Origin: Duodenibacillus massiliensis
GTDB lineage: Bacteria > Pseudomonadota > Gammaproteobacteria > Burkholderiales > Burkholderiaceae_F
Length of the DNA stretch: 64,000 nt
Reading direction: 5' to 3'
Assembly: GCF_900128485.1 (NCBI RefSeq)
Contig: NZ_LT635861.1
Location: forward strand, 478,542-542,541
This document shows, in pieces, positions 1 to 47,262 of the stretch. Numbering within the stretch: position 1 is the first letter of the stretch; each line of letters starts with the position of its first letter. A program made the translations under genes and the position numbers. The notes beneath the pieces were generated by a model that was not told the DNA's origin, did no database searches, and saw nothing but the letters and a program-made list of their open reading frames with translations.

Positions 1-145
1 GCCTGAATGCGGTTCTCCACGGACGGCGCAAGCCAGCCCTTGTGCTTCGATCGAACGTGGTTGTCGAAGCGTGGTGCGCGGTGGCGCGTCTTGCGGTTGC
101 GTCGGGCGCGGCGAAGTGCCAAGCGATTCGAGAGCAAGCCCGTCA
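1..145 (-). pseudogene. Internal fragment of an iscB-type (RRXRR) nuclease gene
   Basis: Read on the minus strand, this stretch matches, with some divergence, the part of the iscB-like gene at 18216-19411 that encodes the arginine-rich bridge-helix region and the segment after it. The arginine-rich part (RRARR) and the SVENRI block are recognisable. The match stops exactly at 145, where the TnpB element begins: both iscB copies read CCCGTCA, after which the intact sequence continues CGTCC while this copy continues with the transposon end CAGAATTT. The rest of this iscB copy is not found to the right of the transposon, where a GntR gene follows, so the locus has also suffered a deletion or rearrangement. 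The fragment runs off the window start, so its C-terminal half may exist upstream. Confidence 0.8.
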
Positions 146-200
146 CAGAATTTCCCGCAGGAAGCCCGGGGCTTGAGCCCCGGGAGGAATGCGGGCTTTC
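146..200 (+). repeat. Left-end hairpin of TnpB element copy 1
   Basis: An imperfect palindrome centred on CCCGGGGCTTGAGCCCCGGG, flanked by CCCGCAGGAAG on the left and GGAATGCGGG on the right. Subterminal hairpins of this kind are the substrate recognised by Y1 transposases of the IS200/IS605 family. The same hairpin opens the copy at 6281, stands alone at 28526-28587, and has a related version at the right end of the IscB element near 19400. Confidence 0.8.
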
Positions 201-272
201 GATTTTTTTAATCTTGGCTCAAACGCAGCCAAACCATGCACATAGTTTTCGCTTAAGGCATATTCAGCCGCT

Positions 273-1877
273 ATGAAATCGTGTACACCGTCCTTTGTCA
301 TCGAGCTGGGCCTGAAAATCGGAGAGGATCAGGAAAGTGCACTGGAGACCTACTTCTCCGATGCACGCCAGCTCTTCAATGCTGTTCTTGGAACAGCAAA
401 GAAACGCGTGCGCGCCATGAAAAGCACTGAAGCATGAAAGCTCACGGCCGCGATGCCCAAGGGCAAAGACCGTAACAACCGGTTTAAGGAAATTCAGAAA
501 GTCCGCCCACCTTTCCGAGTATGTCCTGCATGATGTCGTGAAAGAGCACCGTACCAAGGGCGGCTTTACAAAGCGCATCGGCATCAACGAAGCGCAGAAA
601 ATTGCCACACGTGTCTGGCAGGGCATTGAGCGCCGGCTGCTTCATCAGGGCGGTCAGCCGCGGTTTAAGAGTGCTAAACGGGGCTTGCACAGCGTTGAGG
701 GAAAATCAAACAAAACAGGGTTGCGTTGGAAGGCTAAGACGTGGACGCTCGAGGTTCTGGATCTGGTGATAAAGGCTGAAGCGCCGGATGCCTGGCAGAA
801 AGAAGCTCTTCTTTCAGCAACAGATCCGTCCGGCTTTAAGCGTGTCAAATACTGCCGTCTTGTCCGGCGGATGATCCGCGGCCGTATGCGCTACTTTGTT
901 CAGCTCATTGTCGAAGGCGTACCGCCCGTCAAGCACGTTTATGCTCCCAAGGATCTCAAGGTGGCTGTTGACCCGGGCCCGAGGACCATGACTTTTTACA
1001 GCCCCGAGTGGCAGCAAAAGATTTTGGTGAGCGCGGGCACTGTCTCTCAGGAAAAGGAGATTGCGCGTCTTTTACGTGCCATGGACCGCTCCCGCAGAGA
1101 CACGAATCGGGAGTGCTGCAACGCGGACGGCACCGTTAAAGCCGCCGGAAAAACGATTGTCTGGAAGGAATCCAAGACCTATAAGGCAACAAAGGCCAAA
1201 CTTGCGGATCTGTACCGCCGCCAGGCGGAAACCCGCCGTTGCCTGCACGGCGAAGTGATTAACCAGGTGTTCGGCAGGGCCGGCACCGTCATTGTGGAGA
1301 AGAACTCATACAAAGCATTTCAGAGAGCCGGATACGGCAAGAGTTTGGGCAAAAGCGGTATTGCAGGATTGATAACCCGGATGACAAGTAAGGCTGAAAG
1401 CGCCGGCTGTTGTGTGGTGAAAGTCAGTCCCCGCAAAACTGCGCCCGAGTCAGCACGATCCCGAAACGGGAACGTACCGTAAGAAGGCTCTTTGGGAGAG
1501 AAGTCATCAGTTGGGAGACACGGACTGGTACATGGACCGCGACCTTGCGGCCGCCATGAGCCTGTATTTTGCGGATCCCGCCACTGACAGCTACGATCTG
1601 AAGGCTAAGCAATCAGCGCTTGCGAGGCTCAAACAAGTCTCAGGGAACGCCGGATCAGTAGTGCAGTACAAACCAGCGAATCGGCAAGATGAAGCAGTCC
1701 TTCGCCGGAACCGACGGATCGAGCTGATGAAGCCCGTACCCGTAGAGCGGTTGCGTTTTAAATGTTCCTGTGGCGCAGGGGACGCCCGGGCAGACAAGGC
1801 CTCAAAAACCTTGGCTGTTTGCGGGAAAGCCTGCACCGTGTCAGGAAACCCCGCGCTTTCAAGCGCGGGTTGGTTAG
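273..1877 (+). pseudogene. tnpB: tnpB, broken copy
   Basis: Aligned with the intact gene at 6410-8029, this copy starts with an equivalent ATG at 273 but carries at least three lesions. An early TGA (near 436) replaces the Trp codon of the EAWKL segment. A frameshift near 499-510 separates the N-terminal piece from the long middle reading frame (538-1482). A one-base insertion near 1438 (CAAAAC against GAAAC) ends that frame before the third RuvC motif. Most of the remaining sequence, including the RuvC-I Asp and RuvC-II Glu codons, is still nearly identical to the intact copy, so inactivation looks recent. It cannot make a full-length nuclease. Confidence 0.85.
1734..1877 (+). ncRNA. Putative TnpB omega-RNA (reRNA) scaffold, copy 1
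   Basis: In TnpB elements the guide RNA is made from the 3' end of tnpB and the transposon right end, with the guide taken from the sequence just outside the element. This 144-nt segment, from CCGTACCCGTAGAGCGG to the TTAG end, is conserved almost base for base at 7869-8013 and at 45118-45260. It finishes with a strong hairpin (CCCCGCGCTTTCAAGCGCGG). The sequence just outside, which would be the guide, starts AGCGCCATTGCCG and lies inside the truncated GntR gene. The RNA itself is inferred from family knowledge; no transcript evidence is available. Confidence 0.6.
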
Positions 1878-5968: not shown

Positions 5969-6280
5969 TTTTGTGTTTCCTTATTAAGGGTTGGTTTTTT
6001 CGGTTTCGTTTCAAGACTCAGCGGTGCTGTGTCTTTCTTTGTGCTTCGCAGTTTATGGAGCCGGAATTAGCCGACACCTAGATGCGGCCTAAGTCTTCAC
6101 TAAGTGAAGGTAACGAATTGTTTCTGCTAGGCGCTTTTCCACCCGAAACGCATTCTTAAAGGTGCTCTGCGTATACCTTTGTATCGTCCGCCGGTGCCTT
6201 ATTTTCTCTATTTAAATCAGTTAATTAAATAAACTGATGGTCTGTTGCAGATGACGGGGAGAGAGAAGTTTTCTCCGTCA
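5969..6280. other. Non-coding region upstream of ygiW-qseBC
   Basis: No supported gene lies in this 312-bp stretch. It is AT-richer than its surroundings (for example TTAATTAAATAAACTGA near 6219) and should contain the ygiW promoter on the minus strand. It holds the palindrome at 6095-6109. It ends at the CCGTCA target next to TnpB element copy 2. Confidence 0.6.
6095..6109. promoter_or_regulatory. Inverted repeat CTTCAC-TAA-GTGAAG upstream of ygiW
   Basis: A perfect 6-bp inverted repeat with a 3-bp centre, about 130 bp upstream of the ygiW start. Its size and position fit a dimeric regulator site. Assignment to QseB, which autoregulates in enterobacteria, is inference from context only; the site does not match a consensus I can state with certainty. 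Confidence 0.35.
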
Positions 6281-6336
6281 CAGAATTTCCCGCAGGAAGC
6301 CCGGGGCTTGAGCCCCGGGAGGAATGCGGGCTTTCG
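6281..6336 (+). repeat. Left-end hairpin of TnpB element copy 2
   Basis: Same imperfect palindrome as at 146-200, centred on CCCGGGGCTTGAGCCCCGGG. It directly follows the CCGTCA flank. Confidence 0.8.
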
Positions 6337-6409
6337 AAATTTTTTTAATCTTGGCCCAAACGCAGCCAAACCATGCACATAGTTTTCGCTTAAGGTATAT
6401 TCAGCCGCT

Positions 6410-8029
6410 ATGAAATCGCGCACCCCGTCCTTTGTCATCGAGCTGGGCCTGAAAACTGGAGAGGATCAGGAAAGTGCACTGGAGACCTACTTCTCCGATG
6501 CACGCCAGCTCTTCAATGCTGTTCTCGGAACGGCAAAGAAACGCGTGCGCGCCATGAAAAGCACTGAAGCATGGAAGCTGACGGCCGCGATGCCCAAGGG
6601 CAAAGACCGCAACAAGCGGTTTAAGGAAATTCAGAAGGCCGCCCGCCTTTCCGAGTATGCCCTGCATGATGTCGTGAAAGAGCACCGTGCCAAGGGCGGC
6701 TTTACAAAGCGCATTGGCATCAACGAAGCGCAGAAAATTGCCACACGTGTCTGGCAGGGCATTGAGCGCTGGCTGCTTCATCAGGGCGGTCAGCCGCGGT
6801 TTAAGAGTGCTAAACGGGGCTTGCACAGCGTTGAGGGAAAATCAAACAAAACAGGGTTGCGTTGGAAGGCTAAGACGTGGACGCTCGAGGTTCTGGATCT
6901 GGTGATAAAGGCTGAAGCGCCGGATGCCTGGCAGAAAGAAGCTCTTCTTTCAGCAACAGATCAGTCCGGCTTTAAGCGTGTCAAATACTGCCGTCTTCTC
7001 TGGCGGATGATCCGCGGCCGTATGCGCTACTTTGTTCAGCTCATTGTCGAAGGCGTACCGCCCGTCAAGCACGTTTATGCTCCCAAGGATCTCAAGGTGG
7101 CTGTTGACCCGGGCCTGAGGACCATGACTTTTTACAGCCCCGAGTGGCAGCAGAAGATTTTGGTGAGCGCGGGCACTGTCTCTCAGGAAAAGGAGATTGC
7201 GCGTCTTTTACGTGCCATGGACCGCTCCCGCAGAGACACGAATCGGGAGTGCTACAACGCGGACGGCACCGTTAAAGCCGCTGGAAAAAAGATTGTCTGG
7301 AAGGAATCCAAGACCTATAAGGCAACAAAGGCAAAACTTGCGGATCTGTACCGCCGCCAGGCGGAAACCCGCCGTTGCCTGCACGGCGAAGTGATTAACC
7401 AGGTGTTCGGCAGGGCCGGCACCGTCATTGTGGAGAAGAACTCATACAAAGCATTTCAGAGAGCCGGATACGGCAAGAGTTTGGGCAAAAGCGGTATTGC
7501 AGGATTGATAACCCGGATGACAAGTAAGGCTGAAAGCGCCGGCTGTTGTGTGGTGAAAGTCAGTCCCCGGAAACTGCGCCCGAGTCAGCACGATCCCGAA
7601 ACGGGAACGTACCGTAAGAAAGCTCTTTGGGAGAGAAGTCATCCGTTGGGAGATACGGACTGGTACATGGACCACGACCTTGCGGCCGCCATGAACCTGT
7701 ATTTTGCGGATCCCGCCACTGACAGTTACGATCTGAAGGCTGAGCAATCAGCGCTTGCGAGGCTCAAACAAGTCTCAGGGAACGCCGGATCGATAGTGCA
7801 GTACAAACCAGCGAATCGGCAAGACGAAGCAGTCCTTCGCTGGAACCGACGGATCGAGCTGATGAAGCCCGTACCCGTAGAGCGGTTGCGTTTTAAAAGT
7901 TCCTGTGGTGCAGGGGACGCCCGGGCAGACAAGGCCTCAAAAACCTTGCCTGTTGCGGGAAAGCCTGCACTGTGTCAGGAAACCCCGCGCTTTCAAGCGC
8001 GTGGGTTGTTTAGGGTGCGTTTTTCTTAA
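6410..8029 (+). CDS. tnpB: TnpB-family RNA-guided nuclease, zinc-ribbon-less variant
   Basis: A 539-residue TnpB/OrfB-family protein. The three RuvC acidic residues are visible: Asp233 (VAVDPGLRT), Glu342 (TVIVEKNSYKAF) and Asp423 (MDHDLAAAMNL, aligning with the usual DRDxNAA). Between motifs II and III, where TnpB normally carries a CxxC...CxxC zinc ribbon, this protein reads SQHDPETGTY ... LWERSHPLGD and has no cysteine. The N-terminal part (residues 1-225) is the WED/REC-like RNA-binding region. The last 80 or so residues overlap the putative omega-RNA, and the frame runs 16 bp past the element end, so the final residues come from flanking DNA. It is longer than typical TnpB (about 400 residues). 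Nuclease activity is plausible because all RuvC acids are kept, but is untested. Confidence 0.85.
   Translation: MKSRTPSFVIELGLKTGEDQESALETYFSDARQLFNAVLGTAKKRVRAMKSTEAWKLTAAMPKGKDRNKRFKEIQKAARLSEYALHDVVKEHRAKGGFTKRIGINEAQKIATRVWQGIERWLLHQGGQPRFKSAKRGLHSVEGKSNKTGLRWKAKTWTLEVLDLVIKAEAPDAWQKEALLSATDQSGFKRVKYCRLLWRMIRGRMRYFVQLIVEGVPPVKHVYAPKDLKVAVDPGLRTMTFYSPEWQQKILVSAGTVSQEKEIARLLRAMDRSRRDTNRECYNADGTVKAAGKKIVWKESKTYKATKAKLADLYRRQAETRRCLHGEVINQVFGRAGTVIVEKNSYKAFQRAGYGKSLGKSGIAGLITRMTSKAESAGCCVVKVSPRKLRPSQHDPETGTYRKKALWERSHPLGDTDWYMDHDLAAAMNLYFADPATDSYDLKAEQSALARLKQVSGNAGSIVQYKPANRQDEAVLRWNRRIELMKPVPVERLRFKSSCGAGDARADKASKTLPVAGKPALCQETPRFQARGLFRVRFS
7869..8013 (+). ncRNA. Putative TnpB omega-RNA (reRNA) scaffold, copy 2
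   Basis: This segment overlaps the 3' end of the intact tnpB, the standard location for TnpB guide RNAs. It is conserved with 1734-1877 and 45118-45260. One extra T interrupts the terminal hairpin here (GCGCGTGGG instead of GCGCGGG). The would-be guide begins GGTGCGTTTTTC immediately outside the element. Confidence 0.6.
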
Positions 8030-27646: not shown

Positions 27647-28525
27647 TTACTGTTTTACGGCCTTAACGGCTTCCGTACCGGCAATCCGCCCGAACGTGAT
27701 GGTTTCGGAGATGGAGTTGCCGCCCAAACGGTTCTTGCCGTGCACGCCGCCCGTCACTTCACCGGCGGCAAAGAGTCCTTTGATCGGCTGCCCCTTCGTG
27801 TTGATGACGCGGGTTTTGCCGTCAATCGTTAAACCGCCCATGTAATAGTGGATCGCCGGCGTGATTTCAATGGCGTAGTACTTGGGCTTGTCCACTTTCG
27901 GGAAGCCGTCCGGACGATGAAATTCCGGATCTTTGCCGTTTTCAGCATAACGGTTGTAGTCGGTCATTGTTTTTTCGAGGTTGTCCGGATCAATACCGGC
28001 TGCCGCGGCAAGTTCGCGGATCGTGTTGCCTTCCTTGGCAAGACCGAGCTCAAAGGCCGCGCCCGTCTGCTTGACCTTGTCTCTGACTTTCTGATCGAAA
28101 ATCTCATAGGCAACGCCGCCCGTCTGTTTGCTCACCGCAGCACTTGTGACGTCGCGCGTCGTGAGTTCGCTGATAAAGCGCTTGCCTTCCTTATTGACGA
28201 ACACGGCGCGAGCGCCGCGCACTGTTTCGGAGACAATCACGGGAGAGCCCACCAGCAGCGTCGGGTTAAGCTGGATTTCCTTGGCATCGGTCACCGAAGC
28301 GCCGATTTTCTGCGCAAGCACCATGCCGTCACCCTGACTGCCGGGCTGTTTTGATGTTTTCACGTCGGCACTGATGTCGGGGCGCAGACTCTGTACGCGT
28401 TTGGCATTAGCGCCGATGCCGCCCGTTGCGAGCACAACGGCCTTGGCATTGATCTGATAAAGCCCTGAGTGTTTGCCTTTGACGAGTACGCCGGTCACGG
28501 CACGGGTTTTGTCTGTGATGAGCTT
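27647..28525 (-). pseudogene. Fumarate-reductase-like flavoprotein, 5'-truncated
   Basis: The C-terminal ~290 residues of an FAD_binding_2 flavoprotein (flavocytochrome c fumarate reductase / urocanate reductase type). Visible features are VVLATGGIGAN, the active-site Arg segment RGARAVFVNKEGKRFISEL, ITPAIHYYMGGLTIDG with the substrate-binding His, and the terminal GLFAAGEVTGGVHGKNRLGG. The N-terminal part with signal peptide, any haem domain and the FAD GxGxxG is missing; the sequence is cut at 28526 by an IS605-type hairpin. The remaining frame is open, so truncation may be fairly recent. Confidence 0.82.
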
Positions 28526-28587
28526 CACAGAATTTCCCGCATTCCTCCCGGGGCTCAAGCCCCGGGTTTCCTGCGGGAAATTCTGTG
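28526..28587. repeat. Solo IS605-type end hairpin
   Basis: A long near-perfect palindrome (CACAGAATTTCCCGCA ... TGCGGGAAATTCTGTG) whose reverse complement matches the left ends of the TnpB elements through GGAATGCGGG. It truncates the flavoprotein gene. It is directly followed by the structured segment 28588-28780, and the two may together be a small non-autonomous element. Confidence 0.75.
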
Positions 28588-28780
28588 AAAGCCGTCAGGC
28601 TCAACTCCACGGACAAGCACTGCACCGCGAATCTTTTGCGCCTGGGATTATGCCCGAGCGGGGTGGCAACACCCCCATCGGGGGCGTCTCAGGGCTAGCA
28701 AAAGAACCTTCCGGATCCGGGAGTGCTTGAGCATAGCCCAACCGAAACTTCCGGACTTAGGACTAAGCGGGTAGGGCGCT
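28588..28780 (+). ncRNA. Candidate right end / omega-RNA remnant of a divergent TnpB element
   Basis: About 190 bp without a supported gene. It contains nested stems (CCCGA...TCGGG enclosing GGGGT...ACCCC near 28654-28683). Its end, CGAAACTTCCGGACTTAGG then ACTAAGCGGGTAGGG, has the same plan as the TnpB right ends (GGAAACCCCGCG...CGCGGGTTGTTTAG). A short frame through it ends GLAKEPSGSGSA, like the degenerate C-termini that overlap TnpB guide RNAs. Together with the hairpin at 28526 it may be a tnpB-less mini-element. This is pattern-based inference. Confidence 0.4.
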
Positions 28781-44097: not shown

Positions 44098-45030
44098 ATG
44101 TTTGAACGCATCCGCGAAGATCTGAAAACCATTTTTGAGCGGGACCCCGCCGCGCACAGCAAACTGGAAGTGGCTCTGTGCTACCCCGGGTTTCATGCGC
44201 TCATCATGCACCGCTGGGCCTACTGGTGCAATCTGCAGGGCTGGCCCACGTTTGCGCGCTGGGTGAGTCATGCTGCGCGGTTTTTGACGGGGGTTGAAAT
44301 TCATCCGGCTGCCAAAATCGGGCGCCGCGTCTTTATCGACCACGGTATGGGCGTGGTGATCGGGGAGACCGCGGAGGTGGGCGATGACTGCACGATTTAT
44401 CACGGCGTGACCCTGGGCGGAACAAGCCTCGGGCGCGGTGAAAAGCGCCATCCCACGATCGGTAACGGCGTCGTGATCGGGGCCGGTGCTCAGATTCTCG
44501 GGGGCTTTAAGGTGGGTGACAACGCCCGCATCGGCTCCAACGCCGTTGTGGTGAAACCCGTTGCCGCCAACGAAACCATCGTGGGTGTGCCGGGCCGCAA
44601 GGTTGCGGAAGGCGCCGCACAGAAAAAACTCAATCACGAAGGGTTTGCGGCTTATGCAGTAACGCCCGGCGAACGCGATCCCTATGCGGCTGAAATCGCA
44701 CGGTTAAAGCGTGTGGTTGAGGAGCAGCAGGCGGTGATTGAAGCGATGTCAAAGCAGGTTGGCTTTAAACCGGAAAGCGTGAAACTGGCCGCGCCTGCTG
44801 AAGTCAAGGCGGAAGGCAAACCCGCCCGTAAGACCCGCACGGTAAAGACCGCCGCAAAGGCTACGGCCGCGGCAGCAAAGACCGCTGCGAAAACGGCCGC
44901 CAAGCCCGCAGCGAAGAAAACCGCTGCCAAAGCCAAAACAACGGCTCGTAAGACGGCAGCAAAGGAAGCGGCTCCCAAAAAGACAGCCGCCAAGAAAGAG
45001 ACGGTAAAGGCTGAAGAAAAGCAAGCCTGA
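44098..45030 (+). CDS. cysE: Serine O-acetyltransferase with a histone-H1-like C-terminal tail
   Basis: Residues 1-175 form a short, EpsC-type serine acetyltransferase: left-handed beta-helix with the catalytic Asp-His (FIDHGMG, 81-82) and the loop [21 protein letters not shown]. It makes O-acetylserine for cysteine synthesis. After a linker with a short coiled coil ([20 protein letters not shown], about 198-217), residues 237-310 are almost only Lys, Ala, Thr and Pro in KTAAK / PAAKKTAAK repeats, like histone H1 or AlgP tails. Ordinary CysE ends near residue 180-270 with an Ile that docks into CysK; this one ends EEKQA. The tail is in the same frame with no break. Likely roles are nucleic-acid binding or localisation, both inference. 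Confidence 0.88.
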
Positions 45031-45047
45031 GTTTTATAAGGCTCAGC

Positions 45048-45096
45048 AAAAGCCTGTGGCAGGGACCGGTAAAACGGATCCGGCGCAGGCTTTTTT
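45048..45096 (+). terminator. Terminator of cysE
   Basis: AAAAGCCTG ... CAGGCTTTTTTG with an inner stem ACCGG/CCGG, ending in a T-run. Confidence 0.75.
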
Positions 45097-45117
45097 GTTT
45101 GATGTCAAAACGCGTCT

Positions 45118-45260
45118 CCGTACCCGTAGAGCGGTTGCGTTTTAAATGTTCCTGTGGTGCATGGGACGCCCGGGCAGACAAGGCCTCAAAAACCTTGGCT
45201 GTTACGGGAAAGCCTGCACCGTGTCAGGAAACCCCGCGCTTTCAAGCGCGGGTTGTTTAG
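45118..45260 (+). ncRNA. Solo TnpB omega-RNA scaffold / right-end remnant
   Basis: This 143-nt segment is nearly identical to the 3' scaffold regions of the two TnpB elements (1734-1877 and 7869-8013), from CCGTACCCGTAGAGCGG to GGGTTGTTTAG, with the terminal hairpin intact. No left end, no tnpB and no other part of the element is present. Its outer flank (GGTCGAAAAAAGGCG) would be the guide. It lies between the cysE terminator and the flavoprotein gene. It is either a truncated transposon or a retained stand-alone guide RNA. Confidence 0.65.
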
Positions 45261-45370
45261 GGTCGAAAAAAGGCGATGGATCGCTCCGCCGCCTTTTCGT
45301 TTGAGACAACTGTTGAACTTAAGCGACACCTCAGGCCTAAACCACGGCCCGCAGTGTCTTAAAGCCCCGA

Positions 45371-46915
45371 TCAGGCTTCTTTATAGCCCGTGATGTAACG
45401 CCCGGCCATAAAGCCCGAGGTGTGGGCAAAACCGCAGGCGTTGCCGCCGCAGTAAAACGCGCCGTGCACGCCGGCAACCGTTTCACCCGCAGCGTAGAGG
45501 CCTCCGACGGGCTTCATATCCCAGCCCAGAACCTCAAAGTGCTCAGTGACACGCACGCCGCCGCAGGAGAGGTTGTTCCACGGGAACATGCGGATCATGT
45601 AGTAGGGGCCCTTGCCGATCTTGTACTTCTGATCGGTGCGCCCGAACTGGTTGTCAACCTTCGTGTCAACGGCCTTGTTCCAGACGGCGATCTGATCTTT
45701 GAGTCCCGCAAGATTCACGCCGCTTTCTTTGCAGAGTTCTTCAAGCGTATCGCACTTCCAGAGGTTTTCCTGCTTGGCAAACTCGGCAAGCACGCGTTCT
45801 TCAGACCAGGATGGCAAACCCACCAGTGCCGAAAGCTTGATCTTCTTTAACGTGCGTTCCCACCCGGCCTGATCCGTCAGAACGTAGTGGCAGCCGTCGG
45901 GGTTCGCGGCCAATTTCGGCGTTACGTGGCAGATGCCTTCAAGCTCGGTGACAAAGCGCTTGCCGTTTTTGTTCACGAGAATGCCGCCCTGACCGGTGAT
46001 AAACCACCAGCGGCAGTAGGGGCCGTTGCGGCCGTTAACAACAATACCGCAGGGGTAAGACGCAATGTACTGCATGTGCGAAAGCGGCACACCCACGTCG
46101 CGCACGGCAACCATGAGGGCCTCACCGGTGTTGCTGGGGCCCCCGATCACAACGCCCTTGCCTGCAACGCTCGGCACCCAGCGGTCCAGCGACTCCGCAG
46201 AGCCCGTGATGCCGCCCGTAGCCATAATCACGCCCTTTCGCGCACGGCAGGTGACTTTTTTGGCGCCCGTGCCGCATTCAACACCCAACACGCGGTTTGT
46301 CTTCGGATCAAAGAAAAAGCGGGTAAGGCCGCAGCCGTGGTGAATCACGAGCTTACGGGCCGCAATTTCCTTGGTGAGCACTTCAATGTAGTCACGTCCC
46401 TTAAAGGAATCCTGACGGTGAGCACGCACGTGCGTGTGGCCTGCGTAGGGTTCGAGGTGGTGTTTCGCGAGCCCATGGTCTTCAAGCCAGTCAAAGGCTT
46501 CGCCGGAGTGCTTTGCGAAAGCGTAGACGGGTTCTTTGAGGCTCATGTGTTCGCCGTAGGCGATGATGTCATCGGCAAAAGCCTTCCAGCTGTCTTTGAT
46601 TTTGGGATCGGCCTTCTGCATGCGGGAGCCGTAAGCAGTGAAAAGACCGCCGCAGAGGTTCGTGGCCGTGTGAAACGGGCTCATGCCCTTATCAAAAATC
46701 TCAACCTTGGCGCCGCGGTCAAAGGCCTGGCAGGCAGCCATGAGGCCTGCGCCGCCGCAGCCTAAAACGACGACGTCGGTTTCAATGTCCCATTTGGCGG
46801 GCGCGGGATTGGCAACGGAAGCAGCCTGAGCAGGAAGCGTAACGGCAGCACCCGCGGCAGCAGCGGCTGCGGTACCGAGGAAACGGCGGCGGGTCAGATC
46901 ATTGGTGCTCATCAT
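45371..46915 (-). CDS. Tat-exported fumarate-reductase-like flavoprotein
   Basis: A 514-residue FAD_binding_2 protein. A twin-arginine signal (TRRRFLG) with hydrophobic stretch and AQA cleavage site sends the folded protein to the periplasm. The FAD site is VVVLGCGGAGLMAA; the C-terminal PVGGLYAAGETVAGVHGAFYCGGN is typical. The substrate-site segment reads NNLSCGGVRVT where fumarate reductases have HxxMGG, so the substrate may differ from fumarate. It has no haem domain; electrons probably come from the tetrahaem cytochrome encoded upstream, with which it shares a TGATG stop/start overlap. The frame has a GTG one codon earlier. Confidence 0.87.
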   Translation of the reverse strand: MMSTNDLTRRRFLGTAAAAAAGAAVTLPAQAASVANPAPAKWDIETDVVVLGCGGAGLMAACQAFDRGAKVEIFDKGMSPFHTATNLCGGLFTAYGSRMQKADPKIKDSWKAFADDIIAYGEHMSLKEPVYAFAKHSGEAFDWLEDHGLAKHHLEPYAGHTHVRAHRQDSFKGRDYIEVLTKEIAARKLVIHHGCGLTRFFFDPKTNRVLGVECGTGAKKVTCRARKGVIMATGGITGSAESLDRWVPSVAGKGVVIGGPSNTGEALMVAVRDVGVPLSHMQYIASYPCGIVVNGRNGPYCRWWFITGQGGILVNKNGKRFVTELEGICHVTPKLAANPDGCHYVLTDQAGWERTLKKIKLSALVGLPSWSEERVLAEFAKQENLWKCDTLEELCKESGVNLAGLKDQIAVWNKAVDTKVDNQFGRTDQKYKIGKGPYYMIRMFPWNNLSCGGVRVTEHFEVLGWDMKPVGGLYAAGETVAGVHGAFYCGGNACGFAHTSGFMAGRYITGYKEA

Positions 46916-47262
46916 CACTCTCCCTTCATCTTGAGGTTATTAAACGTGTGGCAGTCATTGCATTCCACGCGCGACTTCGTGTGCATCTTGTGGCAGTTGG
47001 TGCATTCCTGTTCGCCGCGGTGATTGAAGTGCGGGTTGGGATTGACCTTCTGCGTCTTCTTGGCTACGGCGTCATAGCTCTGGTGGCACTGAAAGCACGT
47101 TTCCTTTTTGGGCGCGGTCATCTGACCGTTGGCATGGCACATGCTGCAGGGGACTTTGGCGTGGGGGCCTTTGGCAGCGGAGGGCATGGCCGCGTGAGCG
47201 GGAAGGCATGCCGCAAAAGCTGCGGCCAAAGCGATTGCCGTAAGCGTTTGCTTCAGGGACAT
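46915..47262 (-). CDS. Periplasmic tetrahaem cytochrome c
   Basis: A 115-residue exported cytochrome with a signal peptide of about 24 residues and four CxxCH haem sites (CSMCH, CFQCH, CTNCH, CNDCH). The pattern matches the small tetrahaem domains of flavocytochrome c fumarate reductases (Shewanella Fcc3) as a separate subunit. The ATG at 47262 has a good AGGAGA site and places the signal peptide at the N-terminus. It is coupled to the flavoprotein gene by a TGATG overlap, so the two form an extracytoplasmic reductase module, probably fed from the quinol pool by an unlinked membrane protein. Confidence 0.92.
   Translation of the reverse strand: MSLKQTLTAIALAAAFAACLPAHAAMPSAAKGPHAKVPCSMCHANGQMTAPKKETCFQCHQSYDAVAKKTQKVNPNPHFNHRGEQECTNCHKMHTKSRVECNDCHTFNNLKMKGE

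Follow-up and report, generated by a model that had tools for sequence, protein, structure and literature searches.

A solo omega-RNA scaffold beside cysE in Duodenibacillus massiliensis: the right end of a tnpB-only IS200/IS605-type element, probably truncated by chance

The window, that is, the whole 64,000-nucleotide stretch of Duodenibacillus massiliensis DNA analyzed here, contains a 143-nt piece that is very probably a young insertion sequence remnant truncated by chance, the right end of a tnpB-only element of the IS200/IS605 type. By sequence type, positions 45118-45260 carry a TnpB omega-RNA scaffold. The alignment of this site to the element opens at 45118 (element position 1592), and the piece ends at 45260 in ...GGGTTGTTTAG, the end common to the copies of the element. 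Similarity-search E values far beyond chance were obtained for the solo site (3.6e-70) and for the copies closest to it (1.2e-68), and the solo scaffold is 1 base off five end-to-end copies (L002-L006). The flank to the left of 45118 contains neither a left end (TCACAGAATTTCC...) nor tnpB coding sequence. These coordinates bear out the original prediction of a lone scaffold and right end from which the other ∼1.6 kb of the element is missing. Measured against a whole IS200/IS605-type element, the terminal hairpin and the fixed right end are present at the solo site, and the left end and an inner tnpB frame are both lacking. The features of the locus and of its parent element are collected in Table 1.

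Table 1. Features of the solo scaffold locus and of end-to-end element copies in the window
Feature	Coordinates	Strand	Basis or remark
End-to-end element copy, disrupted tnpB	143..1877 (C22:478684-480418)	+	
End-to-end element copy, open tnpB frame (6410-8029)	6278..8013	+	
cysE (serine O-acetyltransferase), left neighbor	44098..45030	+	
Likely cysE terminator, hairpin and T run	45048..45096	+	sequence and fold; not in the short-loop terminator scan
Truncated right end of tnpB element, omega-RNA scaffold remnant	45118..45260	+	element positions 1592-1736
Helix 1, small 5' hairpin of scaffold	45119..45139	+	fold and covariation; begins 1 base inside the break
Scaffold main stem, site of the private pair-breaking change	45149..45231	+	fold, consensus structure
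Right-end terminal hairpin, then TTGTTTAG	45233..45252	+	fold; also terminator-like in automatic scan
"Guide" flank GGTCGAAAAAAGGCG..., inverted repeat 45268-45280/45285-45297 with A run and T run	45261..45300	+	
FAD-binding oxidoreductase (flavocytochrome c-like), convergent right neighbor	45371..46918	-	

Parent element and scaffold RNA

The full element comprises 1736 nt and belongs to the tnpB-only IS200/IS605 type, beginning with TCACAGAATTTCC and a hairpin and ending with a hairpin followed by TTGTTTAG. We take such a tnpB-only element to be IS1341-like. It shares with known tnpB-only IS200/IS605 elements the subterminal right-end hairpin, a left end that starts with TCA and carries a hairpin, and a TnpB homologue; it differs from them in that its TnpB is divergent and that the solo piece is reduced to the element's final 143 nt. 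A single genome with numerous complete and partial copies, as found here, is also described for Halanaerobium hydrogeniformans in the available text of PMC7290912. The TnpB encoded in the window has 539 amino acids and matches the NCBIfam family guided_TnpB with an E value of 2.7e-19, yet below the cut-off of that family, and no Pfam family is assigned at E 0.001. TnpB residues 1-532 or more are free of stops in five copies of the genome. A separate, tnpA-bearing element of the IS200/IS605 type with similar ends (TCATAGAATTT..., ...TTGTTTAC) is found at L061-L065 and could mobilize the tnpB-only element.

The structure of the scaffold was modeled with a covariance model (R1) built from 22 copies of the genome's own element, an alignment (A1) holding 22 of the 31 right ends after exclusion of six near-duplicates and of L027, L029, and L092. 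At E < 0.01, this model matches 12 of 28 loci with tnpB relatives in the same bacterial family. According to their coordinates, each of the 12 relative scaffolds is on the strand of its matched tnpB, at the 3' end of that gene or just beyond it; at L110, the locus read in detail, the scaffold overlaps the end of the tnpB frame. With two own copies and the 12 relatives, two-sided changes occur in 34 of 43 pairs, a value reached by none of 500 shuffles, and 87.5% of cells are paired compared to 67.3% after shuffling and 38 to 47% in slid controls, in an alignment that was fitted to the model and therefore leans toward structure (the spurious antisense row L001 being left out). The own copies by themselves show two-sided changes in 0 of 43 pairs because they are too alike. 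Helix 1 covaries in the relatives, less firmly than most stems (78% of cells paired). Together, the divergent TnpB and the covarying scaffold mark a tnpB/omega-RNA group of this bacterial family. An antisense match of the model at 45225-45294 (21.3 bits, E 0.004) was taken as an echo of the palindromes and rejected.

As in described TnpB omega-RNA (reRNA) scaffolds, the homologues of this scaffold occupy the 3' end of tnpB and stop where the guide begins. A hairpin at most 10 nt from the guide is reported for almost all TnpB orthologues studied in the available part of PMC10278001. The solo scaffold departs from the known ones in having no tnpB mRNA for processing and no Rfam family at gathering score; the element's scaffolds in the window likewise reach no Rfam gathering score, the weak listings of CsrC and STnc40 falling in the flank. 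Among the 31 flanks compared beyond the right end, no two of the 30 that follow a true end are identical, as expected if the guide is the insertion site itself; L029 has lost its true end.

The 143-nt solo piece folds with a z score of -3.6. In sliding 100-nt windows of the element, the fold z score is +0.9 just upstream of the break (1492-1591) and only -0.5 within the scaffold (1592-1691); an unrelated tnpB segment (192-291) gives -3.1. The break plausibly lies near the 5' start of the structured RNA. The scaffold had been predicted to be intact, which holds for the terminal hairpin and the right end and fails at one position of the main stem: a private G-to-T change at scaffold position 45 converts a consensus G-C pair into U-C. 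The predicted folding energy is -63.4 kcal/mol for the solo scaffold compared to -66.5 kcal/mol for the end-to-end copy L002, a cost of ∼3 kcal/mol for the private change. The automatic terminator scan that includes the terminal hairpin reports 3 sites versus 2.5 expected and covers short loops only.

Outside its own genome, the scaffold model finds seven matches in 4 of 66 genomes. Four lie beside TnpB as located by tblastn, one follows an N stretch with a TnpB-like tail still readable, one is at a contig end, and the seventh adjoins, judging by motifs, what is presumably another TnpB-like frame. The same solo scaffold had been thought worth seeking elsewhere, and no proven case emerged from the 66-genome scan, whose stricter filters recover 3 of the 12 known relative scaffolds and thus miss diverged ones. 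Searches by peptide patterns confirmed no TnpB relatives in the genome_contigs and viral_contigs collections. The site C20:66297-66430 (31.8 bits), considered as an old second solo scaffold, was rejected, as little of it matches beyond the terminal hairpin; we take its remainder to resemble the 5' part of a group II intron.

Truncated copies in the genome and the cysE junction

The 2.35-Mb genome holds 37 right-end matches at E 0.001, 31 of which are at least 111 nt long with 90 to 100% identity; the RNA model gives 32 matches, and 11 elements are complete from end to end. The 35 right-end pieces that were classed comprise 11 that continue as full copies, 1 that begins at a contig edge, 9 with N at the break, and 14 that are N-free, full or internally rearranged copies making up 20 of the 35. 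In nine of the 14 N-free pieces, the break leads into a further fragment of the element; the breakpoints are 639 (twice), 1119 (twice), 1154, 1258, 1358, 1389, and 1522. The other five have other DNA at their left: the solo piece (1592), L015 (1425), L093 (1696), L094, and L095. L015 keeps a tnpB tail, and its left flank is covered for 660 nt. Since breakpoints are spread along the element, the solo break is one point in a scatter. Six N-free left-end pieces lack a right end (L096, L097, L099, L100, L101, and L107; the left-end palindromes L102 and L103 and the N-ending pieces L092, L098, L104, and L105 are excluded), compared with 2 comparable gap-free right-only pieces, L015 among them. Small as these numbers are, the excess of left-only pieces indicates that truncation shows no preference for keeping the scaffold. 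With dozens of tnpB-element pieces in the genome, a solo scaffold can arise by chance. The scattered breakpoints and the 6 left-only versus 2 right-only pieces thus favor chance truncation, one of the two readings offered by the original prediction.

Six N-free internal joints of other copies overlap by 3 to 12 bases; no clear microhomology was found at the solo break. The left flank shares short stretches with the element, the longest being 11 nt at 45093-45103 that match its minus strand at 1163; these are attributed to chance. Deletion junctions are shared at different genomic sites by L010 and L016 (498/639) and by L007 and L029 (432/1119); the recurrence of one internal-deletion junction at several sites indicates that internally deleted copies moved or were copied.

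Several smaller derivatives of the element ends accompany these pieces. A near-perfect palindrome of 64 nt at window positions 28525-28588 consists of the left end and its mirror image (TCACAGAATTTCCCGCA...TGCGGGAAATTCTGTGA) and sits at the truncated start of a FAD-oxidoreductase-like frame, and a similar left-end palindrome is found at C21:358533 (L102). The left-end palindromes are possibly minimal one-end mobile palindromes. Right-end palindromes of ∼36 nt occur in L094 (around 855-891) and L095 (around 716-758), in which the right-end hairpin lies between CTAAACAA and TTGTTTAG and the element body is missing. In L093 (around 1-793), an apparent group II intron adjoins the right-end hairpin as if the hairpin were its insertion site; its assignment as a group II intron presumably follows from a reverse-transcriptase N terminus and a GTGCG-like start.

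The gene order mutS-suhB-trmJ-cysE is seen in most congeners, and the gene after cysE varies: ilvE in G005, G007, and G009, an aldehyde dehydrogenase gene in G002, and other genes in the remainder. Where it matches, the cysE DNA of nine congeners is 70 to 75% alike; the downstream genes differ. Orthologues of the FAD gene at E 1e-100 are present in 4 of the 9 congeners and adjoin cysE in none of the 8 congeners whose cysE is covered on its downstream side. The congener G003 is left out of these eight because contig ends fall at both genes, one cutting cysE and another lying 56 nt from the FAD orthologue. A FAD-family gene downstream of cysE in G008 was rejected as an orthologue, being ∼30% identical and not directly adjacent. 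Among the congeners that could be judged, the truncation thus sits at a cysE/FAD junction found only in this species. The CysE protein itself shows a long lysine- and alanine-rich C-terminal tail (44750-45030), and its C-terminal length differs among congeners.

No scaffold DNA match at E 0.001 occurs in the nine congeners among the candidates scored (at most 40 per genome), from which the expansion of the element looks recent. In 11 end-to-end copies, diversity is 1.75% in the last 146 columns compared to 1.76% elsewhere. Distinct substitutions fall in paired sites in 29 of 45 cases, where paired sites account for 90 of 143 positions (p = 0.88; L029 left out). The substitutions are not biased to unpaired sites, and the copies are therefore without a sign of structural selection since the expansion. 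Judged from these comparisons, the solo piece is young and bears no sign of selection of its own, selection being hard to detect at such youth.

Chance truncation and competing explanations

The proposed history of the locus has few steps. A tnpB-only IS200/IS605-type element would have inserted recently, and a deletion or rearrangement at the junction of cysE and the FAD-oxidoreductase gene would have removed the first 1591 nt of the element, including its left end and tnpB, so that the omega-RNA scaffold was left behind by chance. In the simplest version, we infer that the event that made the junction also removed the left part of the element. The order of events and the chance nature of the loss are likewise deduced from the present arrangement. 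With its left end gone, the remnant should be unable to transpose, and, having no promoter-like sequence of its own, it would probably be silent and improbable as a source of useful RNA. A scan for sigma-70-like sites found no promoter-like site in 44600-45700. The inverted repeat of the flank is plausibly a terminator shared by the convergent genes and not a chosen guide; this reading comes from the arrangement of the repeat, which is absent from the automatic terminator list.

Stand-alone guide RNAs acting in trans are known for IscB, and the original prediction had offered such a role, possibly regulatory, as the other way to explain the solo scaffold. Scaffold and flank would then be transcribed, loaded into TnpB, and directed to cut or repress a target. 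The structure of the scaffold is real and conserved, the five stop-free TnpB copies could serve as partners, and TnpB has been combined with a separately made scaffold-guide RNA in in vitro screens for the TAM, as the available text of PMC10278001 describes. Selective retention would likewise put the cut at the 5' edge of the structured RNA, and this one break may fit chance and retention equally. Against a trans-acting guide stand the missing promoter-like site together with the likely terminator upstream, and the private change that breaks a stem pair. According to the same available text, TnpB in vitro turns the mRNA that encodes it into guide RNA by trimming on the 5' side (PMC10278001), and the tnpB mRNA as a source is missing at the solo locus. 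The search for the TCA motif followed by the flank, which had been suggested as a check, is equally adverse: with the motif read from the left end of the element and hence predicted, TCA joined to the flank's initial 14 nt matches the genome only with 3 or more mismatches, except at the flank's own site, which carries TAG where TCA is expected. At 3 mismatches there are 14 genome matches versus 36 for the reversed control, and an exact search of the viral contigs for TCA followed by 15 nt of the flank gives nothing; no TAM-flanked guide target was thus found in the own genome at up to 3 mismatches or as an exact match in viral contigs. The junction sequence of the solo piece has no match in viral contigs, nor do the right-end region and its flanks match plasmids and phages. 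TldR guide-RNA regulators, as presented in the available portion of PMC13418256, are the model for a regulatory reading; here, in contrast, no TnpB-derived, nuclease-dead protein lies beside the solo piece and no target was found. Taken with the lack of extra conservation and of a proven solo scaffold in the genomes scanned, these results make a retained trans-acting guide or regulator very unlikely. A related scenario, slightly less probable still, has cysE read-through supply remnant RNA that TnpB trims to a fixed guide (GGTCGAAAAAAGGCG...), which would either titrate TnpB as a decoy or protect against DNA with TCA and the flank sequence.

The remaining explanations concern the origin of the break. 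An assembly artefact, in which only the final 143 nt of a full copy survived a collapse, would agree with the N found at the break in 9 of the 35 right-end pieces, a sign that assembly stumbles in this repeat. The window and the solo break are free of N, however, and after a collapse the left flank should still show left-end sequence, which it lacks. A repeat of 143 nt is also shorter than usual read-pair spans, and this origin is accordingly unlikely, if somewhat less so than the trans-acting guide. A miniature nonautonomous element (MITE- or PATE-like), bounded at 45118 by a short left end of its own, has a precedent of sorts in the two-ended internally deleted copies and tiny one-end palindromes of this genome. 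It is contradicted by the other 34 right-end pieces, none of which begins at element position 1592, and by the break itself, where there is no left-end sequence and no pair of ends repeated as a unit; such an element ranks with the read-through decoy as highly improbable. Chance truncation of a recently inserted element is left as the preferred explanation of the solo scaffold.

As a remnant, the solo piece has little importance in itself. It serves as a warning that a free-standing, well-folded omega-RNA scaffold alone does not prove a domesticated guide RNA. The analysis also yields, as a by-product, a covariance model that describes the scaffold in a divergent group of TnpB. If it were true that the solo scaffold acts in trans, a tnpB nuclease family could be re-aimed by scattered guide genes.
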